Shown here: piece by piece, positions 49 through 26,473 of the stretch
Layout of the letters: each line of letters begins with the position of its first letter
Numbering within the stretch: position 1 is the stretch's first letter
DNA from: Ectocarpus siliculosus
Taxonomy: Eukaryota > Sar > Phaeophyceae > Ectocarpales > Ectocarpaceae
Length of the DNA stretch: 26,473 nucleotides
Reading direction: 5' to 3'
Assembly (NCBI GenBank): GCA_000310025.1
Contig: FN648564.1
Coordinates: 837,620-864,092, forward strand
Program-made: the position numbers and the translations under genes
Notes under the pieces: generated by a model
The model's database searches: none
What the model was told of the DNA's origin: nothing
What the model saw: only the letters and a program-made list of their open reading frames with translations

Positions 49-3000
49 TTGTCTAAGAAGACCCCCTCACTGGAGCAGATCCGGGTGATCTTGGAAGCGT
101 GCTTGTACAGGGGTAATGTGGAGGAGGCGGCCACGGACCGGGGACGGCTTGAGGCGTTAACCCTCGCAGAGCTGCAGGTGCGCACGGCATCCGTCTGCCG
201 CAGCAATTTTCGGTCGAATTTGCTCGGGGCACCGGGACGTAGACAACGCTTGACTGAAAAACATAACTTGGCTTGGCAGATGGCAAGATGAACCCAGAAG
301 AGAGGGCGGTCTGTTTCCTCCGCCGTGTGGCCAAGCCGTGCGGAAGGGGGATAGACCATGCGCGTGGGAGGTTTTGAGACAGAAAAGGGGGGGGTTGCCG
401 ATTCCTGGGATGGAAAATTTCGGCCAGCTTGGCTTGAGAGACACGCCCCTTCTCCCTTCCTGCTTCTGTGTGTGTGATCTCACCGCTCGGTAAAGCTTCC
501 CATCGATCCATCCGAGAGTCTACCCCGGAAGATTCCGCGCGTACTGGGTATGTCTCACGATACAAGTTATCCGTTTGCGTCGTCTTGAAGAGGCGGTCGA
601 CCACGGTCTCATGGTAGACAATCATCCCCACCTCCCGGTCGGTCTCGCGAGGCACATGTTGGAGGATGGAACACCGCCGTAACCGTGCTCCTTTTTCTTG
701 CTTTGTTGAGAGGGCTTTGTTTTTTTGTTGACGCGACGAGTTTCGCTATCAAGATGGGGACGTGTGTTCTGTCAGTGCGAGGTTTCGCCCAATGCTTACT
801 CCAACCCGTGGTCACATAGAAGGGGTTCCCCCTACCCACCCCTAAGGCTCTATAGTTGGTCCCTGCTTTGTTGTACGGCCCTGGTTTCGCCGATGCCATG
901 CTGGGCATCATTCACAACAAACCCTCGGGTAGAAGGCGGACGAAGTTCGTGTTCAGGATGACAAATTCGTGCTACTTGGTTTGGGAGCGGTAACTCTCGT
1001 TTTTTGGTGCAGTTCGACTTCCTCTCTTGAGGGTGTAGATTTGCTATGTGCCGCACGAAACGTTGGGTGTGGCATGGGATCCTGGGCGTTGGCCATGCCG
1101 AAAAATGTACTTACCTCCTACACGAAACCTTTTTTTTTTCCTTTTCCGTTTTACCTGTTCTTTTGTTTGGTCTCTCTCCACGTACACCGTGCAGACGAGA
1201 GTCCAGTTTAGCCGCCGGGAGCTGTTGCAGGGTCTCAAGGAGCTGGATGCCGTAGAAATCGATGGTAAGATGTACGCCAACAGCAACGACACCAGCTTGT
1301 GTGGTGGGTTGGGACGACTTGAGCAAAGCCCTTGCTTACCTGCCTTGGCAATGTCCAAACGTACCGGCGATGGTACGAATCGGTGTGGTTTCGGAAGAAG
1401 AGCGGATGATTTCCCCAAGACACCTCGAAACGCCCCAAACGCCTCCCATTGCTTGACGACGAAACCATCTTGTGCCAGCGGTTTCTTCCTCCCCCTCCCC
1501 TCCCCCCGCCACGGGCTCTTGTCCTTCGCATGGTGTACGTAGCCGTAGATTTTGATTGGTCCGTGGACCGTGAGTTGCGTCCGCTGCCTACCTACCTTGA
1601 CCTATTCTTGTTACCCCCCCCTCTGTGGGAACAATGCTCCGTCCTCTCGAGGACGCGTGGTCAATGGTCTAACCGCTAAGACATGCAAAACATAAGAGTA
1701 CCCCACCCCTCCCCCCCGCCCCTGTCGTTTCGGTTTTTGAATCTGTTTCAAAGCCCCACTCTCTCTCCACACACACACACACACGCACGCATCTAGACCC
1801 CTTTGCGACCGCCTCATCCCGTCTGCACTCTCACTCACCTCGCCGCCGACTGTGATAAAATGCGTAAAACCAGGGCGGTGGCGAATGGTGGACCCGGCCC
1901 TGATGGAGCGCACCGCGGACGCGCTTCTGGCGGCAGTGGTGGAGGAAGACATACCGCTCGACAAGGTCCGAGGAGTCGAGACAGAGACCGACAGAGGGAG
2001 AGAGTGGCGGAGGGGGCGGGGGGGGCGGGGGGGGGGAGCCAGATGGGGTCAATCATTTTGTCGAGTTGAAGGTCTTTTGCTTTTCTCCCTGGGTTTTGTT
2101 CTGTTATGTGTTCGAGGAAAACATACCGCTCGCCAGTGTCACATGTTGACCTTGTTTTTTCCTTCAAGGGAGGGACACGAGGGAGGTAGTGGCCTGGGCA
2201 CTCTCGCTAGTGCTGTATTCTCCCAGCCTTGTCCGTTGAAAGTCAATTGTTTTTCTTCCTGTCTCAGGTCGACAGCAAGGCTTGCATAGCCGCCCTGCCG
2301 GACTGCGAGTCCCTGGTGCTGGAGCACTGCCTACGTACGTATTCCCTGCCCTCCGACAACGTTGAAGAGCAAAACGGAGCTCCCAGCGAGGTACGGAGAG
2401 GCGGTCGTGGTGACGCATCTCTTAAACTTCTTTCGTGTTTTGCCTGTTCAAAGAAAGTCAAGGTTCACCTTTGCAGTGTACGTGCATACTGGAATCGGGG
2501 CGGCTTTCCCGTCTAGCTGGGCCACGGTTCAGGTTCCCGACTGTCGGCAGATGAGTCAGCCGGATTAATGCGCCCCGCGCGGCTTCCGCCTTGCAGCCAT
2601 GTTGACAAAGCGCTCCGCGTTCACTGTCCCCCGCCTGTCTGTTTGCGCTCTTTCTTGCCCCCTTTGCCGTCGCCCTCATCCGAATCGCTCCCTCCGTTCC
2701 CTCCGCCCCCCCACCGTCACCGTGCCCCTCACAATTGTTTTGCCCCGGTTATTGTCCTCCGGCGTAGACGGCTCCCGCTGCTGCCGACAGCGTCGCCGAC
2801 CAGACAGTTGCTCCTGCGTACTTCCGGCTGGATCTAGCCAAGGTGGCGCGCCTTCGAGCTCACCAGATCATGCGCGCGCACGAGGCGGAGATAAACGGCG
2901 GCGGCGGTGGCGGCAGCAGCAGCAGCAGCCTTCACGGCAGCGGCGGACCGATTTCACTGGGGGAGTTCATGGACCGGTGGGCGGCTAGCATGCCCGGGGT

Positions 3001-3522
3001 GGACACGCCTTCCCAAGATTTACTCAAGGTACTGCCTCCGACTGGGTCCGCACTTTCAGCCCAAACAGAAGCTCCCGGGGGTTTTTTGGCCGCAAGAAAG
3101 AAGAGAGCCAGGCCTGCAAAATATTACGGGAACACCCAATCCTTTCACTCCTCGTGTCTGAAAGACCGCTCACCATACGGCCTTTCGGGAGACTCTGAAT
3201 TTGCACTCCCCCGTAACGCCTCCCCCCCCCCCGCGTGAGGTCAATGGTCTAACGACTACGGCATGCACGACTATGAGTACACCCCCCCGCGCGCATTGCT
3301 CTCTCGTGCACCCGGAATCCCATTTTCTTGGGGCGATTTCGTCGGGGGCAGGGCATCGCTCTGGTGGAGACGAGAGACGCCAAGAGCGAGGACAAGAACG
3401 CCTCGCTGGTGTCTTACGTCCCGGCATCCGGCCTGCCCTTCTCCCCGGCCGAGCGGCTGGCTGCGCTGTTCCGGATCAAGCCCAAGTGGCCCATGGCAGA
3501 GCTCGAGCCCTACATATCGTGA
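49..3522 (+). CDS. DSCC1: DCC1-like sister chromatid cohesion protein (Ctf18-RFC subunit), 3' part, 6 exons
   Basis: Exons: about 49-177 (start uncertain; 28 is also possible), 1195-1264, 1874-1965, 2268-2390, 2768-3028 and 3352-3522 with TGA. They join in frame (intron phases 0, 1, 0, 0, 0) to give about 281 residues. DCC1 binds Ctf8 and Ctf18 in the alternative clamp loader that places PCNA on DNA and supports S-phase sister chromatid cohesion in the nucleus. The assignment rests on collinear family motifs: LKELDAVEIDG running across the intron into RWRMVDPALMER; then LVLEHCLRTYS; YFRLDLAKVARLRAHQIM; ISLGEFMDRWAASMPG; and the C-terminal winged-helix signature LFRIKPKWPMAELEPYIS. Human DCC1 has about 390 residues, so roughly the first 100 residues should lie upstream. 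The ATG at 28 is probably not the start: a C-rich tract ending in CTACAG at 48 looks like a splice acceptor, and homology begins mid-protein. An Ala-rich stretch and a Gly6-Ser5 run (around 2898-2932) interrupt the conserved core. Confidence 0.85.
1657..1701. repeat. dispersed repeat copy 1, in DCC1 intron 2
   Basis: A segment of about 45 bp sharing the core GGTCAATGGTCTAAC, then a diverged stretch containing CATGC and GAGTAC, with the copy at 3237-3280. Both copies are intronic, in the same orientation, and next to C-runs. This suggests copies of a short interspersed element, or two ends of one. Confidence 0.5.
3237..3280. repeat. dispersed repeat copy 2, in DCC1 intron 5
   Basis: Second copy of the repeat at 1657-1701. 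It matches the core GGTCAATGGTCTAAC exactly and shares CATGCA and GAGTAC downstream. It lies about 70 bp before the acceptor of the last DCC1 exon. The core vaguely resembles a pol III A-box, but no matching B-box or clover-leaf was found, so a tRNA origin is only a guess. Confidence 0.5.
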
Positions 3523-8700: not shown

Positions 8701-11700
8701 CTCAGGCACCCATCAACGCCCTACATTGGTGCCGACGAGAGAGCTCGACGGCGCAAACATAGCTGCGAGGGCACGTCACCAAAACCTGCGGAACAATACC
8801 CTTGGAGGGAAAAACTGTTGGGGCTCGCAACGTGGATGCTACATGTTTTTTTCAACGAAATCGGAAAGTGTTTTTTTTTTCTATACTTGTGGGAGCGGGG
8901 CGAGGAGAAACTTTTCAAACAGGCGGGAAGAAGAGCCCTCGGGACACCTCGCGTCCACCTCTCCCGTTTTGAAAAGGGCAGCCAAGCAGCCGTCGTGCGT
9001 TCGTTTCCCCCTCATTCGCATTGGAGCATCTGGTCGTTCCCTTGTTGGCAATGTCACTGTCGTCACAACGCAGAAAGTCCCGTCCGCCTGGTTGCCACCG
9101 CCCTCCTCTGCTACAATCAACAAATCAACATGTGAAGGCAAGTGTTGCGCCGACAGTAACATCAACTCCCTTTCGCGCTGACTGCTTCCGCCTTTGTACT
9201 AGAAACACAAAAAAATGAATGCGTGAAGGCAAAGTCTTGCCAACGACGAAAACAACAGCAGCAACAGTAAGCCCCCTCACGCTGGCTGCTTGCGCCCTTC
9301 TTGCGAAAACACACAAACAAATCATGACTGCTGTATAAAGGCAAGCTCGGCGTCATCGCGTCCGAGGAGGAGGACACCCCCGTCCTCGTCGAGGAGGCGT
9401 TCAACAGCAAGTTCGTCGCCGTCTTCGACCCCCTCGACGGGTCCTCCAACATCGACGCTGCCATCAGCACCGGAACCATCTTCGGAATCTTCGAGGAGAC
9501 TGAGGTGAGCCAAGGGGGGGGCACAGCAGATTGCTAGGAAGCGTGCCGAGGTATGGGTGGTTCTTGTTGGCTTGTCGAGGTGCTGGGCGGTCGATTGGTC
9601 GTCTTTTTTGCCGTGGTCGACGTTGCTGCTGCTGTTGCTGCTGTTTTCGCTGGCTTGGTTGTCTACCTAGCGGTGCCCGCGCTTAACGGCTAACATACGG
9701 AAATAAATACACCTGTATGCGCGGGGCCAAATTCGCTAGAACGCCGTATTCTCCACGTCTTGCCGTCCCCGTGGGGTGCAGTGTTGTGTATTGATGTTGC
9801 CCTTATTTTTTTCGTTGTGGTGACATCCATCGTGCGCGTGCATTGAGAAGTAACGACAATTGACATGGTCGAACCCGACCCTCCGCAACCTCCCCTTGTG
9901 CTTTTTGATGGTATCGTCATGGTCTATGTTGTTGTTTTTCAACTGGTGTGGTTTCCTCTGTGGAATTTGGTGTTGATGTTTGCGTGCGGCTATTGTCGTG
10001 GTGATGTTGTTGCCACACCAGGAGTGCATCGTCGACGACGACGCGGACATGGACGAGGCGTCGCAGGTGTGCCTGCTTAACACCCTCCAGCCCGGAGGCA
10101 GCTTGGTCGCGGCCGGTAAGCAACCAACCTAGGCACCAGTATCGATTTGTAGCAAGCAAGCTAGCAGGCGAGATAGAGGACAGCCCGCCTGGCTGCAATC
10201 TCGCACGCAACAGATACCGAAGAGGAAATTGGCCGTACGTTAGTGCATTGCGTGGATGTTTTTGGTCTGGAGCTGGCACAAGGGCAGCGGTTGAGTGGAT
10301 TTTACGTCGCAAGACCAGGTACTAGGTGCTGCTGCTCCCGCTACCGTTGTACATACTTGTGTGCATTTGGCGTGTTCCGACTCGAGCATACCGATTCATG
10401 AGCCGAGCCGGATTGAAGTATATTTCATGGGAGGTGGGACAAAGGAAACTGACGTGGAGCGGAGCGAACGAACGGTGCGGTGGCAGACAGTACGCGTGTG
10501 TGCTACCGGTTCCTGCCTCTCGTGAGCAGACGGAAGTAATGACCACCGGGTCGACTTTTGTTCTCTCTGGTCGCTCCGCGAGGAAGACGGAGGTTTCTCG
10601 CGTGGGAAGTAGTGGCATACGTGCCCGGTGTCTCATGTGTCTTGTGTCACGTTCACCTTGTCATTTTCCTTTAGCCAGGTGGGCATTCCACGGATCCGTT
10701 GTGCGTTTGCCTTGCTGCTGGGGTGCTGGTTGACGACCATCTCAGGGAATCATCCATCTCTTGGTGCCAACTCGTTCCTTGCCGGCGCAATTTCATACAA
10801 CCGGTGCAGCAAGGCCTTTTTTTTGTGAGTTTGTGTTTTTGTTCTATGCATGTTCCTGATTCCTGTTGTACGTCGTTCCCGTGGTGCAGGGTACTGCATG
10901 TACTCCTCCTCGACCATCCTGGTGTTCACCATGGGCGACGGCGTGAACGGCTTCACCCTCGACCCCCAGATCGGAGAGTTCGTCATGACCCACCCCAACA
11001 TCCAGGTCCCCAAGCGAGGAAAGGTGATAACAGTTTGTTCGTTTCGCGTCCGTTTCCGACAATACTAGGACTTGCAACGCAAAGAAACATCGGTTATTGC
11101 GAAACGATCCGGGAGGGCATAACCCTAAAAACCCTGACCCCACCCTCAACTTTCCCGATTCTAAACTTCATCCGGTATGTTTCTTCCCTTGAACCTGCGT
11201 AGACTGCGGTACCGAGACCGCACCAGCATCGTCGTCTTGCAGCCTCCCTGGTGTGATCATGTGTGCGCCTTTGGAGTATGGGGAAGAAATTTGTTTTAGG
11301 AATCTATAGAAGGGTCATCCTTGTTGCTGCTATCCGGATCGGAGGGCGGTGTCGGGAGTGGTATATTAGCCCCAAGAGGCGTTGTCTTGCCAGGGGATCC
11401 AGTCTGCCTCTCTCACTCCGTCCCGCGACCCTAAGAACAGTTCCCGCTTGATTTGTGCGTGTGCGTCTTTTGTTTGTTCTTATTTTTGGTACCGCACAGT
11501 TGAGCCGTTTGCTTTCGAAGCTTGTCCTTCTAGAACAGGTCTCTGCTTGACCCTTCTTGGTCAGCACTGTCGAAACATGTGCCCACCCACCCCTCCGCTT
11601 GTCGTGTATCTGCACTCCCCCCTCTGCTGTTGATGGACGTTGCTGTGCATGCCCCCCTCCCCCCTTTGTCTTCGGCTCGTGCCCAACCCACCTCTCCTCG

Positions 11701-13219
11701 TGTCTCCTTCCGCACGGCTTTCTTGCTGCCGTGTTGTTCCAGATCTACTCCTTCAACGAGGCCAACAGCCCTGACTGGCCCGAGAACCTGCAGACCTACG
11801 TCACTGACCTCAAGAACGTAAGACCTATTTGGAATGATATTTTCGTCGATCCTTCCTTCTTTTGGACAAGAATGCTGTCCGCATATCATATGCTTGCCCG
11901 GATTTTTCGCCGCGAATGGATCTTGTCGAGCTGGTGGCATGGATATGCTCGCATCTTTTGTCCACCCCCCTCTGGCTGACGGCTCTATACCTGGTACGTT
12001 TTTTTGTTTTGTTAATAATCAGGGCGATGGCGAGAGCGGCGAGAAGTACTCGTCCCGCTACATCGGGTCCATGGTGGGCGACGTGCACAGGACTCTCTTG
12101 TACGGTGGCATCTTCGGCTACCCCGGGGACATCAACAACCCCAACGGTGAGGAGCTGGGTTGGGTTTGGTCTAGTTTCCCTGTTGCTTTCTTCTCCCCCC
12201 ATCCCCCCCTCCCCGAAAGCATCTTGATTTCATCAACTCCATTACGATGCTGCAGCCTTCTTGGAAACAATTCGTGTTGTGCCGCCATGCTTCTCAGTGA
12301 GTTTTATTTCCAGGCGCTCAACCAGTCCGTGGCCCTAGAAGTTGTGGGCATGGATGTATTTGTTGTTTTGTATGGGGCTTGACGTTGGAGACGAGCGAAC
12401 GGCAAGAGGACCCTTGTGTCGAGAATTTTCTCCTCCTCTTCCTCTACACTGCGGGTGCGGTGGATGACCCGTCTATGTGGCTCCGTGCATTGTCGTTTTG
12501 TCGGGCGCGTGAGAACTCGGTCTCCCCCCCCCCCTGGGCCCCACCATGTACTCGCATTCTTTGAAGACTCACGCCTACATGTCTTTGTCCGTCCCTCTCC
12601 GTCATGGACTCGCGCATGACCTCGACAGGCAAGCTGAGGCTTCTGTACGAGGGCGCGCCCATGGCCTTCATCTGCGAACAGGTGCGCAGTCTTCCCTGTT
12701 GGCGCCTCTCGCTCACGATCGCCTCTGCGTCGTTGATGGCGGCTCGTACACGGCAGTGTCTCTCCCGCTCTTTTTGTTTCCTAACCCTAATGTCGGGTTA
12801 GGGTTTCCTAACCCTAATGTCGGGTTAGGGTCAGGGTTACGTACACAGCAGTGTCTCTCCCACTCCTTTGGTTTCTCCTCGATTTCTCGTTTGCAACGTG
12901 GTTTAGTTAGTCCTATCCATCTGTCTCACTTGGGCTTGTTATCGTTTGTAACGTGGTTTTGTTGTCCTATCCATGTATCTCGCTTGGGTCTGTTAGCACC
13001 TACATGTATCGTCGCACGCACGTGGGCTGATGCATTGGTCGTCCGCTTGTTTGGTCGCTTTCCGTCGCGCCGCAGGCGGGGGGCATGGCAACGACCGGCA
13101 CGCAGCGCGTCATGGACATCAACCCGGAGAAGGTGCACCAGCGCGTGCCCACCTACCTCGGCTCCGCAGAGGACGTGACCGAGCTCATCAACGCCCTCAA
13201 GAAGGAGAAGGCTGAATAA
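5790..13219 (+). CDS. FBP: chloroplast fructose-1,6-bisphosphatase, complete, 11 exons, 406 aa
   Basis: Exons: 5790-5839, 6291-6483, 8026-8121, 8498-8591, 9341-9504, 10022-10115, 10890-11023, 11743-11817, 12023-12146, 12629-12681 and 13076-13219 with TAA. Intron phases are 2,0,0,1,0,1,0,0,1,0, and the sum is exactly 407 codons. The enzyme hydrolyses fructose-1,6-bisphosphate to fructose-6-phosphate in the Calvin cycle. Family marks in order: [18 protein letters not shown] (about 89-106); [20 protein letters not shown], the metal-binding catalytic motif (173-183); GTIFGIF; the redox loop ECIVDDD onward (200-216); [96 protein letters not shown]. The start is the ATG opening a short hydrophobic signal peptide ([16 protein letters not shown]), followed by [12 protein letters not shown]. 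This fits stramenopile plastid import, with Phe after the cleavage site. Cys201 and Cys216 match two of the three regulatory cysteines of plant plastid FBPase; the third is Leu221. Length is normal for a plastid FBPase precursor. Confidence 0.96.
9044..9340. repeat. degenerate tandem repeat at the 3' end of FBPase intron 4
   Basis: About three diverged units of 86-110 bp start near 9044, 9131 and 9221. Shared landmarks include (GA)AGGCAA near the start of each unit, a pyrimidine-rich stretch with CTGCTT or close variants, and an A-rich end (AAACACAA, AACAAATCA). The same AAGGCAAG string is the acceptor and first bases of exon 5 (AAAG then GCAAGC at 9341). The repeat therefore runs into the functional splice site and supplies look-alike acceptors at about 9136 and 9226. 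Confidence 0.5.
12745..12997. repeat. nested duplications filling FBPase intron 10
   Basis: Two pairs of repeats are visible. A 36-bp unit beginning CGTACACGGCAGTGTCTCTC occurs at 12745-12780 and 12840-12875, on either side of the telomere-like block. A 55-bp unit beginning CGTTTGCAACGTGG is tandemly duplicated at 12888-12942 and 12943-12997. Copies differ at scattered bases, so the events are not very recent. Confidence 0.75.
12777..12830. repeat. two 27-bp telomere-like inverted-repeat units
   Basis: Two identical 27-bp units lie head to tail at 12777-12803 and 12804-12830. Each contains CCTAACCC, a 7-base spacer (TAATGTC) and GGGTTAGG, so each unit is itself a perfect 8-bp inverted repeat of the TTAGGG telomere motif in both orientations. 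Further GGGTTA bases follow at 12834-12839. The block sits inside intron 10 of FBPase. Confidence 0.85.
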
Positions 13220-15645: not shown

Positions 15646-17163
15646 GAACAAGAAATCGCGGGTACATCGGGAGCCGCCGACTGCGCTGTCCGTGTTGTCT
15701 TTATCAGAATTAACACAACCAACTAACTGTTGGAGTAGCAACGTCAGAGAGAAACAACACCAGAACTGCTTGAAAGTTTTGGCTATCTGGTACAAGAAGT
15801 ATTGTCAAGGAAATGTTGTGTATGTCTCATGTTCACCCTCTGCTCTGTCAATTACTTGAGTATGTGTACATATATATGGTGTAGTACATACAGTAGTGAT
15901 ACGACATGTTATCGCGAATACAACAACGATAACAGCATGGATGGAATCCGATGCCCGGGTGGGGACAAAAGGGTTCACTTCCTGCCGGGCACTGAACCAT
16001 GGGGCAGTTACTGTTTTGCAGGAAGTCACACTCGATGCGCTCGATGGACTGGACTGCATGTTTCCAAGACGATAGCCAAGAGTAGCAGTCTACGTCCACA
16101 GCGCGATATCCGACTCTGATGCATGGACACAGTCATCGTGGCTTCATCGCACGACGTTGGATTTGCGAAGACGAATGATGACCAAGAGGTGGCACTTTCA
16201 CTATTCATTGCAACATGCATTCATTCACCCTAGGGCAGCCGGTGGGGGAATGAACGAATGAATGTGGACCCGTGATCTACCTCAAATACCGCAAGTGTTT
16301 GAGCGAGGCGACCGAGAGAATCAACTAACAACAAAGGAGCTGTATCATGAGTCCAAAAAGTGAGGGCCGATGCGCTCGACTCATTGCACTTTTTCCTACA
16401 ACTTTCAATATGTTACAGCTGCTGAAACCACCTTGTACTGCGTGATGAGTGTGCTGGGGGTCTTTCCCCCCTCACTCCTTCTGCATCGACAAGCGACGCC
16501 CGGCAGCTGATAACCGATGAAAGTACGGCACGCCCCCGCCTCTCCCGTGAGTACGTGCTGTAATGCGCCAACGGTGTGATCCAAACTCACAGTTTTCATC
16601 GCCGTCCGTCTGAGCGCCGCCAAGGGCTACTCTTGACGCTCCCCTCACATTGACTTTTCACCTGCCGATCCCCACATGATTTCGGATTGGATGAAATACA
16701 AATACCCACCTGTCATATCTCTCTTTCCAGTGGAATATTTTGGTACCCCTCCATGTGGCTGACCTTTGACAAACTGAAATATTCAGGGATTGTACCTTAG
16801 ACGTGTAGCATAGAACATGTCAACGAAACCCCGGTGTTTCAATAGTGGCTACGTGGCGCCTCGGTTGGAAACGAACCTCGTATGCCCTCTGGCGTCATTG
16901 CTGTAGGTCGGGTCCGAATCCCTCCGGAGCGACAAGATTCGCCATTTAGAAATAAACCGCCGAACCTCTGCCATGATTTTCCGTAGAGACAACAAAAGAA
17001 GATGGGGCTATCGCATAATGTACCCCCCTTTGCGTCCAACCCTAAGGGCAGTCTACGGGCAGGAAACGTGAAGGGACCCTCCTGTGTGACTGGTGAGTCA
17101 GAAGCAAGGTGGTCTACACCTAAGAGTAGAAAATAGGCTTCTACAGTGGACTAGTTAGAACAG
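15646..17163. other. intergenic stretch without identified gene
   Basis: No coding region with family support. Visible elements are a small (AT)n patch at 15870-15877, a CATTCATTC/GAATGAACGAATG imperfect inverted repeat at about 16215-16265, and a B-box-like string GGGTCCGAATCC at 16910-16921, which does not fold into a convincing tRNA. Confidence 0.45.
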
Positions 17164-17206
17164 ATGGCACCATCCTCGTTCACCGTAAATCTGTATCCAT
17201 CCGTGC

Positions 17207-17241
17207 TTGTTGTTGTTGTTGCTGTTGTTGTTGTTGTTGTT
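17207..17241. repeat. (GTT)n microsatellite, interrupted
   Basis: GTT units are broken by one GCT near 17221. The repeat lies in a 109-codon open frame (17164-17493), where it encodes a Val-rich run that mimics a signal peptide. I regard that frame as probably spurious. Confidence 0.8.
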
Positions 17242-18145
17242 TTCGGATTTGTATCCGCCGATTGCAATGAAAGCTATCTATCCCAAAACACACTTCTACA
17301 GGGGGCGGAAGCGTCCGCGAAGCCCCAGCGCGCGAGGGAAGTAGAATCAGAAAGTACGGCCATCTCGGGACCGAAGAGAAAGAGAGTCGGGGAAACAGCG
17401 GTGGGAGGGAAGAAACGCGACCGGGCACTACACACTGTAGAAGCGAGTAGGGCGGCCGAAGCAGCACCTGTGGCGAACTATGTATCCGGCTGAGGTTGAT
17501 GCGCCATGTTCCCCTCCCTGCTGTACGCTACACTCCCGTTGTATGTCCTTTGTATTGCCTTTATCTCTGTGCTGTGCTTCTTTTTTCCTGCCCTCCCTGC
17601 CTATTGTACCTTGTTGGGTACCTTGATCTCCCTTTGGCTGTTGCTTTTGCTTCTATTTTTCTGGCTGTCTGCCCATCTGCCGCCTCGTTAACATTGTCCA
17701 CGAGGGGGCGGACGGTTAATTTGCGATGGAAGTTTCGTACTGAAGTTAGACTTTGGAAAACCGAGATATGCAGGCGTTTCCTGGATTTGGAACAGGAGGT
17801 ACTGCGATCCCCAGTGCGCCCTAAAGTGGTTCAATTCGCTTCCCATATAGTCTATTTCGCAACGTATTTCCATTTCGTTTCTTAGGTTTCGAAGATATTT
17901 TCCCTCAGTTCACCCAAAGTCAGCGAAGGGGACGTTTTCTATCTCTGGCTTCTTCTGAAGAAAGCCGCGAAATGCGCGGTGTATTGACATACACACAACA
18001 CGTTGAAGATGTTTACACAAGACGATGCTGGGAGCGACCGCATTACGCCATATCCGTCACCGACGCGCGCGCCCCAACCCGTCCTTGACGGTCTTTTCAA
18101 CGCATGTAACCTACTTGGTCCCTGCTCATATAAACACCTCTTTCT
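17242..18145. other. intergenic stretch without identified gene
   Basis: Two back-to-back open frames (17164-17493 and 17496-17885) cover part of this stretch. One is dominated by the microsatellite-derived Val run and the other by Leu/Cys-rich sequence. Neither has recognisable domains, and I do not call them as genes. The rest shows no feature. Confidence 0.4.
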
Positions 18146-18289
18146 TGAACCACACTGCTTAAAGCATCGACCTGCTATTCAACCTAACCACCTTCAATTT
18201 GCGATTCGGCCCCTACGCCCCCTGAACCACACTGCTTAAAGCATCGACCTGCTATTCAACCTAACCACCTTCAATTTGCGATTCGGGCC
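18146..18289. repeat. 77-bp tandem duplication
   Basis: A unit beginning TGAACCACACTGCTTAAAGC starts at 18146 and again at 18223. The two copies are identical for about 66 bases, ending in GCGATTCGG, so the duplication looks recent. The second copy runs into the GC-rich palindrome at 18284-18317. Confidence 0.9.
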
Positions 18290-18317
18290 CCGGCGCCCAC
18301 TGGGGGCGTAGGGGCCC
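18208..18317. repeat. GC-rich inverted repeat around the duplication
   Basis: GGCCCCTACGCCCCC at 18208-18222 is exactly inverted as GGGGGCGTAGGGGCC at 18302-18316. In addition, 18284-18317 is an imperfect palindrome of its own, starting GGGCCCC and ending GGGGCCC. This may be the end of an element or a fold-back structure. Confidence 0.7.
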
Positions 18318-18436
18318 TAGTACTCTATTGACAAGGGAGAAGAATGACCACCATCGGGTTATTGTCAAACATTCCGGTAGCTCGGTCGATTTTCAACACA
18401 CGTCCGGCTCATCACATGCAGTATATATATATATCA

Positions 18437-18598
18437 ACTCGAATGGCTAGCGGAGGTTCGTTGATGATGTACTCGACACGAAAACGAACGGAAAAAACAG
18501 CCGGTAAGACAAGAGATGAGGTCCGCAAGACGTCAGTGACTGCACGTGAAAAAATAAAAAAGATTGTCCGGCGACACGAAACAAAATTTGGCGGGTGA
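18437..18598. repeat. diverged dispersed repeat, copy 2
   Basis: Counterpart of 15499-15645, in the same orientation. It shares GGCTAGCGGAGGTTCGTTGA and the following A-rich pattern (ACGGAAAAAACA, TCCGCAAGACG, GCACGTG). An (AT)n patch at 18421-18432 precedes it. It ends about 390 bp before the start of the modular secreted protein gene. Confidence 0.55.
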
Positions 18599-18983
18599 AC
18601 GGGTGAATGCGGAGCGGCGTACTTCACCCGTCAGTGTTGAATCCTTCCAAGGTTACCACGGAGAGAAACACTTCTCTTTGGGCTTCCCGTTTCTCATGTC
18701 TGCCGCACATGCCCCCATCTATCGGAGGCGCACGACCGGTGCGCACCGTCGGTAGTTTTGGGTCTGGGAACCACAGCGAATTTGCGTAAGGGTCAAATTA
18801 TTTTATGCAAGAATGAAAATTGATTCCAAGTTGTGGATCCCACCTACCTGTAGCCCGTTCCTCCGATGATGTTGCCTGTTGCTCCACCCCTACACACTGC
18901 CTTGCCTCTCACTCCTCTCTTTTGCTCTCCACCGAAAGCAAGAAGATTGATAGAAGCAACCAAAACACGGATAACACCGCACC

Positions 18984-21900
18984 ATGATGAGCACTGTCAT
19001 CTCCTCTCCTCGGCGAGGCTGCCGCCCTCCGGGCCTCGTCACGGTGGCGAAGAACCTTCTTCGGCTGCTGGTCGTGCTAGTGGTGCTCATCACCTCAGCC
19101 GCCGCTGACACCCCTGCCCAAGACGGGGGGGAGCCAACGTCGGAGGACACCACCACCTACATCTACAGCTGCGACGATCTCGCGATGGACACGACACTCG
19201 TCCGCGGCTCCGTTGCCATTATGGGCGACATCATCTGCGATAAGACCAAGGTGTGTGAAAGTCGCAGCGGCAAAAAAAGTGCCATGATTTTTTTCGGTTG
19301 CCTGCATCCTCTGCGTGTGTGCATGTCTCTTTCTCCAGTCGTGCTTTTGGAGTTCGTTGCATCTTGTCGAGGTGTCGGGCTTGATTTAGCCCCTGGTGCA
19401 TTGAACCGGCTCATGAACCTCGAACGTACGCTCGGAGATCTTTGGCAGACTCAAAGCCAACCGCCCGCGTTGCGATCCACGCCAGGTTCCACCGTGCATG
19501 ATTTCGTCCATCAGTGATGGGGGAAGAATGTTGATCGATTGCCACATCCTTCGCTCTCTCTACCTTCTTTGCTCATCTAATGTATTGATGAGAGTACAGC
19601 AGTACAAGAAACAAACAGGCGCAATTCGGCGTACATGATTTTGTCTGGCGCTGCCATACCATGGGATCGGAAATAACGCCGCAGGCCTTGGTAGTACATG
19701 TACGCATCAGATCAGTGGTGAAATGACAGCAGCTTCATTTTTGTTCATCATGCCCTCCTGTTCTCTTGAAATTTTTGGCATTCGGAAAGCTTTCTCCCGT
19801 AGAATTGTTTCTCATAGGCGATGTATACCGCAGATCAGAAGGTGCTGCGGCTCTCCTGGATTCGGCTGCTGCTGCTGGAGATTGCTGCTGTAACATCATT
19901 ATCTATGCCGTTGTGTTGGATCGTAAACTCGGTGCTTGGCAAACTGTAGCGCTCAGCGCACTCGCGGCGCGCGCCGCACCCCACAACAAAGCCACCTCCA
20001 GGAAAGGGCGGTTCCACGCACTCCGTTCTTTGCTCGCCCTCGCCTTTGCGCGACGCAACGAAGATTGTCATCTGTACGGACGGATTGTGGATTCCGACCA
20101 ACGGTAACTTTCTGTGGTGTCGCAGATTGTAATGAAAAAGAGAAGGGAGGTGGTGAATGATCCACCGAGCTCCGTGAGTTGGATTGCCCCGCCGCCGCCG
20201 ACATGGCTCCACTCCGCAACAAGAAGTGCAGTAGTGCAGCCGCCACCGCCACTCCCTCTCTCTCTCTCTTCCATCTGTCTCTGTCCCACTCAGAGTCCTG
20301 GCAGCCAAGCTCAATAGACACGTTCACGTGTAAAATCGAACAATGATTGTATTGCTGCGACCAACAGATCATCGAGGTGGCTCAGGGCTACGGCGACGTC
20401 CTCATCTTTGCAGACACCATCATGTGGACCAAGGGCGTCATCTTCGAAATCCCCAAGGGAACCAGGGTCGACTTCGGAGCGCCTGCTTTCGTCTTCGTCA
20501 GCAACGAGGTATGTATGGCATACGCACAGCCGGCAGCCAATTGTCCATGAGCCACATGGTTTCAGTTCTGTTTGCACTCTGTCGAGGCCGAGCCCATCAT
20601 TAGCATGGTCTTCCAATACGACAGCAGCAGCAACAGCATTTTAGGGGGCGGCGCAACATTTTTTTTTTTTTCTCCACGAAAACATGTCGCAGCCAGCGAG
20701 GAACGTGTCATGCGGATTACCCCACACACTGAGTTGTTTGGCCTGACTTGCAGCGCCTTCAGAACACGGCAAAACAGCCTTCGTTGCCCAACGCAATATC
20801 CCTCGCCCCCCTCTCTCCGTTTCGGCTTATTCGCTATTGTAACTTCGTTGCCCTTGTGGGGTACATATGGGTGTTGGTGTTGGTGTTGGTGCGTTACTGC
20901 TATACTATGTAAGGACAACAAGGACGGCATCTTCCACGTGGACGGGATCCTGGGGTTCCTTGCCGAAGACCCCGGCTTCGAAGCCCCTGACGACGCCACA
21001 CCGGTAAGGGTGTCTGTCTCTCGTCGGCTGTTCTTGGTATTGTAGTGGTTGCAGCGATATTTGGTGGTGGCCGTGGCGGTGGTATTGATGATTTAGCTCC
21101 TGTTGGTGCTGTTTTATTGTGTTGTTGGTATTACCTGCCGTCATCGTGGCCTACGGGATGTCCGTCCGCGTGGTTCTAGGCTTTGCAGTCGAGAAAATTT
21201 GAGACTCAACGAAAACGCACCAGATATATATTTTTCGTGATTCCTCCGCAAGATGTGACGTTCGGTCTACTGCTGTATTGCACCCATGAAACATCCCGAC
21301 ATCTTGACGAAGCTTTACTCGGTTCTCCACTCTTATTTTTGTCCGAAAGTTTTAACGCACCCGGTGTCATTCCCCTCTTGTCGCGTTTACCTGATATTTG
21401 GTTTTTGCCGATTTTTTCATGCCACCGCTCCCCCTCGCTTCGGCTCAAGGGTGAATTCCACCAATGCCCAAAGCTTGTTCTCCCCTCCCGCCTCCATCGA
21501 AGCATTGATGCTAGTCCCCGGTGTTGGCTCCCATGACTCCCTGTCCCGATCCAGTCTTGCGTAAAAGTGCAAGAACTCGACGTTACGTCTATCGTATGCA
21601 TACAACACCAAACAAATGCTTGGCCAAATTTCAAGTATAATGTCCACCATCACACGCGGCTTTATTTAGCACCCGGAACTGGTCGTTATAGCCCCTTTAC
21701 GGTCCGACCATCGCATGCTCTTGTTCCTGCTTGTTTTAACCAAATTTGTGTGTTGCCTCTCGAGAACACGGTTGTGACAGTACTGCAGGCGGAACAGGCC
21801 AGCGCCTTCCCCTTCCTGATCAATGGCCCCTCGCTCTTCCCCTGTTTGCGTCAAACGGTTTCCGCTGGTCGTTGCGATACACAAACGAACCTCTCTCAAC

Positions 21901-24900
21901 AAACAGGAGGACCTGCACCGGATGGTCCGCCTTGCCCCCGATGGCACCGTACGGGCTCTCGGTGATGAGGCCATGTACTTCACCGACTCCGCGGTGTTCG
22001 TAGTCGCAGAGCCCAGTACCGACAAGAACGACAACAGCAACAGCAACAGCGAGGCAACCGGTGGCTCTCAGGGACACTCTGCAGGCCTCGCTCAAGAGCA
22101 GCAGCGGCGGGAGTTGGAAGCGAGCGGCATGGACTTCGTGACGTACCTGAACTCTTGCGACGACCTCCCGAATGAGCGAACCCCTTTCGAAGGGGTCGTG
22201 TCCGTTACGGCAGACATTGTGTGCCCCGAGCCCAAGGTGCGCGAGTGTGTCTGGTTCGGGCATGCCAGGCTCTGTTGTGTTGCAGCAGGCCGTGCATGTC
22301 ACTGCATGAGGCCTGTTGGGTTGTGGCAACATCAAAACACTTTGGCTGTAGCCTCTTGTCCCTGAATCGGGCAGTCGACCCAAAGGTACATATTGACGGT
22401 TACAATCGACAGGTGACGTTTGTGTGTTCGTGTGCTTTACTTCAAGTGATTGGGTGTTCGGTGCTTGACAACTACGAGTGTCGCATCTCGGCCGATTATG
22501 TATCTCCCCCACTTTTTCGCCGTGTACTATAGTACTGTTGCCGAAAGTAAGGTAGCCCATCCCGTAGAAAGGCCGATAGGCAGGCAAACCGCCAACAACG
22601 TGCTTTTCGACCAACCGGTCCTGATAAAGATGAATGCACGAACACAGCGCACAGCCGATGAGCACCAGAGTATGTAAACCAAGAAAATACTCGTAGGCAG
22701 TACATACGGCGGAGGAGCACCATTAACCTCTATCGCCAACCATGGATCATTGTCGGAGCAGGTGATCGAGATCGCCGAGGGAAGCAACAATGTCCTGTTC
22801 GTCGCCGTCGACACCCTGTACACCAGGAACGTCCGCTTCAACGTGCGGAAGGGCGAAACGATGCACATCCGGGCCCCGGCTCTCACTTTCGAGAGGGAAC
22901 AGGTATTGTAGCTGTTGAGCGCTGTTTTCGTCTGGCATATCTCTCTATGCTTCTCCAGCGGGTGTGGCACCTATTATTTTGAGGTCAGATGTCACCGCTG
23001 ACGTCCGTTCCTGTTTTTTTTTCTGTGCTCGCGAGACCCTCCTGCCCTTTCTCTTCCTAACTTTGTCGATGTCGAGGTGAGACGATTACCTCGCCCCCAG
23101 GACTTTTTCTTGCTATGTACACACGTCTCGTCAAATTGTCATATTTTCCCAAGGACATTGTACTGTTTTGTCATATTTTTGGACCGGAGATGTATTACCT
23201 ACTTCCCGTCACTCGCGAAGTCCATCCATTTCGCAAAGATCTTTCTTGCTTGCCCTGATCTCCTCCGTCTCCCCGCATTCCTCCCCCTCTTTTCCCTTGC
23301 GGTATCTATTTTTTCCAACGCCCCTGCTTTCCTCTTGTCCAACATCTGCTGTGACTATCGCTGGGTAATTTGTCCAGGGGGATTCGGTTGAGATCTTCAA
23401 CTTGCACGGCGAGTTGCACCTCCGCGGCGACCAGCACCGCTTCGACGATCTGGTCGACACGAGGACGGTGAGCTCTTGTTGGCTGTCCTTGTTGTTGTTG
23501 TCGTTGTCGGTGGTGCTTTGTTAGCGACCCCATTGCTCCATGTCTCATGGTCAGGACTGACTTGGTCTACCTAGTGTCTCTATCTGAACACCTGCCTCCA
23601 CGATGTTTTTGGCCGACCTAACGTGTGCCGCCGGCAGTGCTGTGCTGCTTGTTCAGTTCTTTTCAACCGGAAACGCACCTGATCTGCCAGGAGCTGCCGT
23701 GCCTTGCACTTATTTGGACCTGACAAGGCTCAAGCACCAACACGGTTGCGACTCAAGGGTTTACGTTCCCACCGCTCCAACACCAACCCAAGCAGCTTCA
23801 CACATACATACACCTTAGCACCGTTTTCCCCTCACGCGTAGGATAGTCATGTTCAGTTCAGCTCCCTCCATCTCACGTTCCGCAACCTATCCCTCACACA
23901 GACACACTGAAGCTTGTCCTCTGGCTGTGATCGCCCCAAAGCCTAACCTCCCCTTCGCACCCCTTCTGCCGTCGTGTGCCCGCGTGCTGTTGGCCATGTT
24001 GCAATGTTTACTCCACAACCCTAGGACGACCCACACGATACGATCCACGGTTCCCCCGATGGCGATATCATCACCTACGGCGGTTCGATGCTACGCTTCA
24101 GCGAGACCTCCGTCATCGTTGATGCTGCACCCACCGACACCGACACCAACACCTACGACAAAACCTACGACAACACCTACGACAACAACAACAACGACAA
24201 CGACAACTTCCTCGAGCAGGGGGACTCCGCGGAATTCTTTACGGTCGAACCGCAAGGGCACCTGGGGCTGTACGCCGACAGAAGTGGTCCCTTGCTCGAC
24301 GATGGAATGGCGGTGAGGAACAACGTTGTTGTCTGGTCGGTGGTGTTGTTGCTGTTTTTGCGAATTTTGTTGTTGTTGTTGTGTGTGTGTGTGTGTGTGT
24401 GTTTTAGCATCGACCGTGCCAACCCGTTGACCAATGAAAATACATCGGTGTCAGCGAGTGGAGTTCAAGAATGTCCGCCTTCCAGAATACCACAGTTTGT
24501 ATTTATCTCTCTACAAACCTTTTGCGGGGTAAACAACCCCAAAGCTTGACGCGAGTCCAGAGCGTGTGTACGTCTTGCATCGCCCCCGTCGTCGCCCCGG
24601 AGAAGGAATGCTTTCGGGGGGGTCAACAGCAGTCGCAGCAGCAATACATCGGCAAACACTGCCCCCATCTCAATGATGCCTCTTCGAGCCGTGCCTTGCT
24701 TGTTGCGCGGTGGTATCCGGTGCACGGGAATGCCGCGGTTTCGACGCAGATGCGGTCGGCAAGCTCGTTTCACTACAGTAGCTGGTTTTGCACTTAAAAC
24801 TATTGGAGAAACTGGGTGGCAATTACCAACCCCTTGTTCTACTCTCCCCATCGCTTCTTGTCTGTCTGTCTGTCTGTCTAATTCATTTCCTCTCCATGCC

Positions 24901-26237
24901 ATGTCTCCCTGTATCGTCGCGAAGGAGGACAAGCACTCCAGGGAACTGGTGAAGGAGGGAGGAGCGTTAGACGTCGATGGCCAGATCCGCCATACGGCCT
25001 CGGGCATGAGAGCCGTCCTTGCGTTCGATGTCCAGCAGCCGGAGAAGAAGCACACAGTCCCCATCCGTCAGCTAGTTGAGACCGTCGAGCAGCCGAAAGA
25101 GCAGGACACAGTCCCCATCAGTCAGCTCGTTGAGACCGTCGAGCAGCCGGACGACCAGCGGAGAGCTTCCATCCCTCAGCTCGATGAGACCGTCGAGCAG
25201 TCGGAGGAGCAGCACACAGTCTCCATCCCTCAGCTCTTTGAGAACAGCGACAACGACAACCCCCCCACCTCTCCCGCCATCCGCCCCTTACCTACCCCAG
25301 GGGACGAACACAGCACCGCTGCCAATGCCGGCACCGGTGGTTCCTCCAACGGTACCCCGAAAACCACCGCTACTTCCACCGCAACCGAGAGTGACCGCCT
25401 AACCTCAGGGCTTGCCGTCGTCCATGACGTCCTCCCGCTGTATACCCTGGAGTCCTGCAACGAGCTCCGGTTCGAGCGAACGCCCGTCCAAGGCGTGTCC
25501 GGCGTGCTTCTCCTCGACGATGATATCAAATGCACCGAGAAACGGGTGAGCGAGCTGTTAGCTTTATCATCGCTGTCGCAGTATCATTGTCAATGACAAT
25601 GATGGGCTAGCCCGGTTTCGTCTCTTGTCTCTGTTGCTGCCTCTCGATAATGTATCTTTGCCTCTCTCTCTGTATCTCGTGGGAACTTTTGGTGGCAGCG
25701 AAGAATAGCGCTGGAGCGTACGTTGATGTACGTTCCACATTGCCCGGTACTAGCCCGAGGTTTGCCACTGGTGGCTGCCGTAGAGCACGCCCCCCACCCC
25801 AATCGGACAAGAGTTTTTGTTGTCCTGCACGGAATGGGAAAAGTATCCGTTACCACTCTTACACGAATGAGACAGGACCACGTTGGCATGAGCGTATCAT
25901 TTCTACGATCGTCATTATCCTTGTTCGTTCTCGTCGCCAGCATCAGATGGTGCACCAGAGAAGCAGCAAGAGCACCGTCATCGACGAGAAAGACCTTGAA
26001 CCATATTTTTTAACAGCTTTCGTTCCTTGTTCAATCTGTGTCGCGGGTGCCCTGTTTCCTCGCCTTGCACCCTCTCCCTTCCGACGTCCACGAATATCGC
26101 AGATCCTCGAGGTCGGCCACGACTTGATCATCGTTTCCGATAAGCCCGATCTCCGCTTCAAGGGCGTGCACTTCGTCGTTCAGGAGAAGGTCTCGTTGAC
26201 CTTCATGGTGGCCACGATAGTCTTGGAGAAGATCGAG
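18984..26237 (+). CDS. secreted modular protein of unknown family, 9 exons visible, 3' end beyond window
   Basis: Exons: 18984-19250, 20368-20508, 20914-21003, 21907-22236, 22762-22902, 23378-23467, 24025-24312, 24925-25545 and 26103-26237. All are phase 0 and give 701 residues without a stop. Residues 24-41 (NLLRLLVVLVVLITSAAA) form a signal peptide, so the protein is secreted or enters the endomembrane system. Four modules recur. A is a cysteine-pair segment, SCDDL...D-I-x-C (Cys63/85, Cys250/272, Cys627/652). B has about 47 residues starting IIEV, VIEI or ILEV (90-136, 277-323, 657-701). C has about 30 residues (137-166, 324-353, and about 419-449 starting GDSAEFF). D starts [ED]D-x-H (167-, 354-, 450-). 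Linkers are Asn/Asp/Ser/Thr-rich. The alternating hydrophobic pattern suggests a beta-rich fold, perhaps a beta-helix, but that is inference. No catalytic motif is seen. The ATG at 18984 is followed by a second ATG; either leaves the signal peptide intact. I do not recognise the family. Confidence 0.8.
24368..24402. repeat. GTT then (GT)n microsatellite in intron 7
   Basis: A short GTT run passes directly into about 11 GT units, a few tens of bases after the exon 7 donor of the secreted modular protein gene. A (TGTC)n run follows at 24860-24879, in the pyrimidine-rich part of the same intron. Confidence 0.85.
25042..25257 (+). repeat. four 54-bp (18-residue) tandem repeats in exon 8
   Basis: Four consecutive 18-residue units occur within exon 8 of the secreted modular protein. 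The first two read EKKHTVPIRQLVETVEQP and KEQDTVPISQLVETVEQP; the third and fourth (starting DDQRRASIPQL and EEQHTVSIPQL) are more diverged. Consensus: two charged residues, Q/K, H/D/R, T/R, V/A, P/S, I, x, Q-L, then usually E-T-V-E-Q. They sit between a D module and a Thr/Pro/Ser-rich linker, so they may be an extended or helical spacer. Confidence 0.9.
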
Positions 26238-26473
26238 GTACGCACTTATGCGAGTAAACCCATCTTGCGCTTGCGGGGATGATGATGCTGGAAACTGAGC
26301 ATTGGGGGGGGTGTAGGGGGGCATTGCGGGGGATGTACCGCACAATTTTTGTGTTTGAACATAACCAGGACGTTAGGATGTATGGTTGGGTGAAACCGTG
26401 TCTGAACACTGCACCCAGGGGGGGCGGGGCGCCCCCTCCCCAATCTTCTCGTTCCCCTGATTGAGCGATGGTT
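26238..26473. other. start of intron 9 of the secreted modular protein gene
   Basis: GTACGC at 26238 is a good donor after the third B module. The remaining 236 bases include G-runs (26305-26311, 26409-26415) and C-runs. They show no C-module-like exon, so the gene should continue beyond the window. Confidence 0.6.

Follow-up and report, generated by a model that had tools for sequence, protein, structure and literature searches.

Exon shuffling of repeats has been described in the ROCO (LRR-ROC-COR) genes of brown algae, which shuffle the exons of their leucine-rich repeats (LRR). According to PMC11378527, these genes carry tandem exons of 72 bp and phase 2 beside the ROC-COR domain, each exon corresponding to one 23-residue LRR. 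The present work concerns a predicted gene at positions 18984-26237 of a stretch of 26,473 nucleotides from Ectocarpus siliculosus, referred to as the window (C464:837620-864092, in an assembly of 189 Mb in 492 contigs). As judged from the genomic sequence, the gene very probably codes for a unit of about 139 residues that is repeated on linkers and cut by phase-0 introns into pieces designated A, B, C and D. What it shares with the ROCO genes (PMC11378527), the nearest known parallel to its genetic design, is the brown-algal host and the use of symmetric exons that code for pieces of a repeat and are shuffled with the frame kept. Unlike the ROCO exons, those of the window are of phase 0 and code for parts of the unit (B exons of 135-141 bp, C exons of 90 bp), and none of exons 2-9 shows the length of 72 bp or the phase 2 given in PMC11378527. 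The window protein also has a signal-peptide-like start, and its predicted location differs from that of ROCO proteins. A Pfam search with the 701-aa product and with 23 complete units gave no LRR or ROC match. The features of the gene are as follows.

18984..19250, plus strand: exon 1, with the start codon, the signal-peptide-like N-terminus and A1 (19164-19250)
18984-19106, plus strand: signal-peptide-like N-terminus, residues 1-41; its end was set by eye and the hydropathy peak lies within residues 16-46
20368..20508, plus strand: exon 2, B1, 47 aa, phase 0-0
20914..21003, plus strand: exon 3, C1, 30 aa, phase 0-0
21907..22236, plus strand: exon 4, D1 (21907-22014), a 45-aa linker and A2 (22150-22236)
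22762..22902, plus strand: exon 5, B2, 47 aa
23378..23467, plus strand: exon 6, C2, 30 aa
24025..24312, plus strand: exon 7, D2 (24025-24132), a 29-aa linker rich in Asn, Asp and Thr, and C3 (24220-24312)
24925..25545, plus strand: exon 8, D3 (24925-25023), a 142-aa linker with a 54-bp tandem repeat, and A3 (25450-25545)
25030..25243, plus strand: coding minisatellite in the exon-8 linker, 4.0 copies of 54 bp (18 aa)
26103..26237, plus strand: exon 9, B3, 45 aa; the gene goes on past the window beyond an assembly gap

The original prediction, made from the letters alone, had proposed nine phase-0 exons in this region, and they proved to be open and to join in frame to a product of 701 aa with zero internal stops. 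The lengths of exons 1 to 9 (267, 141, 90, 330, 141, 90, 288, 621 and 135 bp) are all divisible by three, and AG and GT flank the exons, exon 1 having no AG edge as it starts at the ATG. Along the window the pieces follow each other as A B C D A B C D C D A B. The sequence features attributed to the pieces were also accurate: the cysteine pair of A is spaced 22, 22 and 25 in the three copies, B begins with I/V-I/L-E-V/I (IIEV, VIEI and ILEV), C is about 30 residues long (30, 30 and 31) and D begins with an acidic residue followed by D-x-H (EDLH, DDPH and EDKH). Only the 5' part of the gene lies in the window. Directly past its end the gene runs into an N run of 3.1 kb, an assembly gap inside the gene (C464:864093-867191), beyond which it resumes with more pieces and then a tail. 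Next to the gap, the opposite strand carries part of a B piece (C464:867281-867349).

Relatives of the gene in its own genome were found only on contigs C464, C22 and C138 by two genome-wide protein searches, a method that may miss weak matches. Ten genes or gene remnants were counted, eight on C464 and C22 and two on C138. Four of them, genes I to IV, are arranged in tandem on the minus strand of C464, with their first A at 669934, 643245, 620139 and 599548; the remaining members are the window gene on the plus strand of the same contig, three genes on C22 and two on C138, the last with two units each, some pieces of which are weak. For the counts of pieces, iterated hidden Markov models seeded with the window's own copies of A, B, C and D were run against the fetched DNA of C464 and C22, and matches with an expect value (E) below 0.05 and at least 60% of the profile covered were accepted, weaker or shorter ones being excluded. 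The genes on C138, C464 902-904 kb and C22 40.5-48.5 kb were kept out of the copy counts, the unit alignment, the pairs used for substitution ratios, the unit types and the spacings. This gave 30 copies of A, 29 of B, 28 of C and 29 of D. These numbers exceed chance, because five block-shuffled controls yielded totals of only 0, 1, 1 and 3 matches, respectively (E<0.05, no coverage filter).

The copies are uniform in those features that define the pieces. Both cysteines are retained in all 30 copies of A, one of which has a third, and they are 22 residues apart in 25 copies and 25 apart in five. The start pattern of B is present in 29 of 29 copies and that of D in 25 of 29. Phase-0 splice edges are nearly universal: GT follows A in 30/30 copies, AG precedes B in 29/29, GT follows B in 28/29 (the remaining one has GC), AG and GT flank C in 28/28 and AG precedes D in 29/29, under a rule that tolerates a shift of a few codons and succeeds at 20,000 random positions with a frequency of 0.23 for AG and 0.28 for GT. 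Recurrence in a near-fixed order had been proposed for the window, and across the family 97 of 105 steps between neighbouring pieces (within 3.5 kb) keep the order A>B>C>D>A.

While the original prediction regarded A, B, C and D as four module types, they are better read as four pieces of a single domain. Most likely they are consecutive parts of one domain of about 139 residues (A 29, B 46, C 31 and D 33), because they abut without a spacer, because linkers fall between D and A (the composite D-C exon excepted) and because the pieces mostly travel together as unit types. Zero residues separate A from B, B from C and C from D, the pieces meeting at introns. Linkers of 45-255 residues connect D to A in 19 of the 20 D>A pairs that lie within a gene, and the twentieth, in gene IV (C464 592347/591185), does not stay in frame; three further adjacent D>A pairs merely bridge neighbouring genes and do not belong to the 20. 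These linkers are rich in Asp, Asn, Gln, Ser, Thr and Pro and nearly free of Cys and aromatic residues. In an alignment of the 23 complete units the columns C3, G15, C25, F55, F83, G87 and D108 are invariant. Most simply, the unit can be read as a single domain that is interrupted by three phase-0 introns, is carried on flexible linkers and bears a disulphide, which would join the two conserved cysteines. As each unit is cut by three phase-0 introns, the internal exons 2-8 of the window are symmetric (0-0), and the frame can therefore survive the loss or exchange of exons or whole units.

Signs of such turnover are visible in the family. The copies were grouped by single linkage at 62% identity, which is a coarse cut-off, and the type names are our own labels. 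Gene I shows the series T1 T2 T3 (C-D only) T4 T3 T7 and gene II the series T1 T2 T3 T5a T5b T6, while genes III and IV are without parts of units and are rearranged or incomplete; multi-unit neighbouring genes thus carry differing mixes of recurring unit types. In gene IV a B piece is split and partly inverted (C464:595952-596168); its inverted fragment (595952, plus strand) is contained in the count of B copies and was omitted from the grouping. Fragments of A and B on both strands at C464:902-904 kb are probably remnants of another copy.

On the same contig, at a distance of about 180 kb from gene I, the window gene forms an inverted copy of it. The two are 92.7-94.5% identical along roughly 10.6 kb (15894-26473 of the window) and 89.9% identical along 5.5 kb past the gap, and their unit series agree throughout the readable part of the window gene. 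In both genes D2 and C3 lie in one exon, so that the third unit is without A and B. Just ahead of C3, 12 bp (24208-24219, translated FLEQ) look like the last bases of the intron that precedes the corresponding C exon in gene II, so that the composite exon probably arose by a deletion that joined the linker in frame to the intron end. The minisatellite of exon 8 belongs to a set of eight related stretches in this genome, all of them inside genes of this family on C464.

Several observations weigh against this interpretation. The exon model was derived from genomic DNA alone, so the splicing is predicted. Eight of the 105 steps are out of order (C>A 2, D>C 2, A>D 2, B>D 1 and D>D 1), and the D-C junction without A and B in the window gene is not what would be expected of a strictly indivisible domain. 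No fewer than two of these breaks stem from the threshold: at C22 1976335 a D with E 0.085 and at C22 52995 a C with E 0.066, both weak, occupy the expected positions. The two AlphaFold models of the unit, made with window rows only (four rows each), are weak, with a mean predicted local distance difference test score (pLDDT) of 58.8 and 64.7, and their last third falls below 50, leaving the D part unconfident. Foldseek found nothing at E<=0.001 for the models in the PDB and among viral models, VIA-align reached top Z values of only 4.2 and 3.4, and a comparison of the unit profile with itself gave one off-diagonal match with a probability of 0.4%, and hence no credible solenoid-like period.

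The repeated beta fold expected by the original prediction is borne out only in part: the models are beta-rich and residues 1-80 reach a pLDDT of 65-92 per ten-residue block, the last third lying below 50. The weak VIA-align rows include many beta-solenoids, among them phage tailspikes, the MinC C-terminal domain and pectate lyase, although a resemblance at such Z values may reflect a common arrangement only. Our guess from the models is that the unit is mainly beta, perhaps a short beta-solenoid. Right-handed parallel beta-helix proteins (Beta_helix PF13229 and Chlam_PMP PF02415) are similar insofar as the model is beta-rich and many weak solenoid rows were obtained; they differ in that the unit is without a profile match, a credible internal period or a confident fold match. 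None of the 23 units matched PF13229 or PF02415 at E<=1. In the genome no match to PF02415 was found at E<=0.01, and none of the 16 matches to PF13229 was on C464, C22 or C138.

The combination had been described as one that could not be recognised, and no named family emerged from Pfam, NCBIfam, PHROGs or the PDB sequences with a credible match. In Pfam the best hit of the 701-aa product was EutQ (E 0.16, 12.2 bits against a cut-off of 21), and the 23 units gave three weak families (best E 0.069), none of them credible; past the gap, the sequence covered by this search comprised one complete unit, counted among the 23, and some tail pieces from a paralogue. NCBIfam gave two weak matches (best E 0.07). 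The PHROGs family phrog_1997 appeared in five of the 23 units (best E 0.0017). It was rejected as noise because only 28 and 16 residues were covered (E 0.014 and 0.091) in two of eight re-scanned units, among which the unit with the best E was not included. Among PDB sequences the unit profile hit two chains, the best being Speedy protein A at E 1.4, which was rejected as well. Queries with one protein gave eight pattern matches in viral contigs and 155 in prokaryote genomes, and tblastn confirmed zero in either set. In the literature searched no title or abstract start describes the family; novelty in print is not established by this. The domain family is thus unrecognised in the libraries searched, and the genetic trick, symmetric-exon repeat shuffling, is already known.

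The EsV-1-7 family is a hallmark of brown algae. Its motif has at least 150 scored matches in this genome (880 candidates) as against zero in 14 control genomes, which speaks for a brown-algal host; the likeness to the present family is that it is another large family of the genome. However, PF19114 is a motif of 35 positions, unlike the unit of about 139 residues, and it was absent from the Pfam matches of the window product (to E=10) and of the 23 units (to E=1).

The N-terminus of the window protein consists of an arginine-bearing start, a hydrophobic run and an alanine-rich end. Within the 701 aa hydropathy exceeds 1.6 solely in residues 16-46, a measure which is not a signal-peptide prediction. 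Ten first-A frames of the family have similar hydrophobic N-termini when judged by eye. The proposed signal-peptide start is plausible for the window protein by hydropathy and for the paralogues by eye, and the protein is likely to be secreted. At the other end, of nine downstream regions searched, eight contain tail motifs and that of gene III has none, and the two tail pieces of gene II had no Pfam match.

The coding pieces look mostly constrained. Compared with gene I, the window gene has 13 synonymous and 17 nonsynonymous changes in its modules, corresponding to a synonymous divergence (dS) of 0.045, a nonsynonymous divergence (dN) of 0.018 and a ratio of 0.39. Among 253 unit pairs, 98 have a dS of 0.1-1.0; their median dN/dS is 0.56 and none exceeds 1. 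Pairs of first units with a defined ratio range from 0.44 to 1.45 at a dS of 0.07-0.14, and ratios of 1.05-1.47 were seen in three first-unit pairs (dS <0.1) and one T6 pair, figures that come from 2-7.3 synonymous changes. Positive selection is not claimed, as no pair with a dS of 0.1-1.0 lies above 1 and the higher ratios at low dS rest on few changes. In the exon-8 linker 34 nonsynonymous and six synonymous changes separate the window gene from gene I; this high dN is unreliable because the linker holds the minisatellite, where the alignment is unsafe. The first units of these two genes differ by one nonsynonymous change only. Over A1-D1 (window 19164-22014 compared with C464:669.9-667.1 kb) there are zero synonymous differences at about 97 sites, while the whole 8.4-kb stretch differs by about 5.5%. 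This absence of synonymous change could be due either to conversion or to hidden constraint.

Upstream of the gene, exons for fructose-1,6-bisphosphatase lie at about 9200-12400 of the window on the plus strand (PF00316, E 3.3e-17 and 9.8e-10; FBPase_C, E 1.5e-15). An open frame at 2768-3238, also on the plus strand, has a weak match to Dcc1, a protein of sister chromatid cohesion (PF09724, E 0.00036; its 20.5 bits fall short of the cut-off, 22.9). Scans of the window for Rfam families (at gathering scores) and for tRNAs were empty.

The best overall explanation, to which we give about an even chance, is a secreted multi-domain protein, its 5' part in the window, that serves as a binder in the matrix or at the surface. 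After export, the protein would sit in the wall or at the cell surface, and its several flexibly linked units could bind with avidity to a repeated ligand, such as a matrix polysaccharide or a partner surface. Recombination would vary the number and mix of units, and this shuffling might tune specificity or reach. Multivalent extracellular binding as the function is put forward tentatively.

It might be thought that the four pieces are mini-modules in their own right and free to shuffle, since B and C each occupy one symmetric exon and junctions of D with C and of A with D exist. We consider this improbable, because 97 of 105 steps hold the order and, apart from the composite D-C exon, the in-frame linkers sit between D and A. 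The exceptions occur in genes III and IV, which look partly deleted, go back to one deletion common to the window gene and its inverted copy, or involve a missed weak piece or a gap region. That the exons are remnants of a decaying or misassembled gene without a product might be suspected from the assembly gap within the gene, the rearranged or incomplete state of genes III and IV and the presence of an inverted copy 92.7-94.5% identical about 180 kb off on the same contig. This is the most improbable of the alternatives, since all nine exons of the window are open and in phase, dN/dS against the inverted copy is 0.39 and a conserved tail is found past the gap.

Given a secreted multi-domain protein, its role could also be recognition in defence or mating, with the units as a diversifying binding repertoire that is shuffled between tandem genes in the manner proposed for brown-algal ROCO receptors but outside the cell. 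The tandem cluster with its differing unit mixes, the symmetric exons, the first-unit dN/dS of up to 1.45 and the precedent of LRR-exon shuffling in brown algae (PMC11378527) all fit. The substitution data fit less well: zero of the 98 better-separated unit pairs lie above 1, the ratios that do are based on a handful of synonymous changes, and a single nonsynonymous change is all that separates the first unit of the window gene from that of gene I, so that we regard this role as possible but rather doubtful. Still less likely is a repeated carbohydrate-active enzyme of the beta-helix type, similar to an epimerase or lyase. The beta-rich model and weak VIA-align rows for pectate lyase (Z 3.0) and a PL6 alginate lyase (Z 2.2) speak for it; however, the invariant residues C, G, C, F, F, G and D look unlike a catalytic set, and Pfam gave no credible match to an enzyme family.

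Complex multicellularity arose in brown algae separately from animals and plants, and little is known of the proteins that they secrete for matrix and recognition. The most far-reaching interpretation, which we think unlikely, is that of a lineage-specific secreted domain family in which phase-0 exons and shuffling between tandem genes yield a shifting repertoire of binding proteins outside the cell. It would parallel, in the extracellular space, the ROCO and NB-TPR genes of brown algae, candidate immune receptors with shuffled exons. Even if the product were merely a structural protein of the wall, it would still represent a domain family to which the libraries searched offer no match. With its unrecognised repeated domain, symmetric exons and visible turnover of units, the family would offer a concrete and testable case of how such proteins originate.

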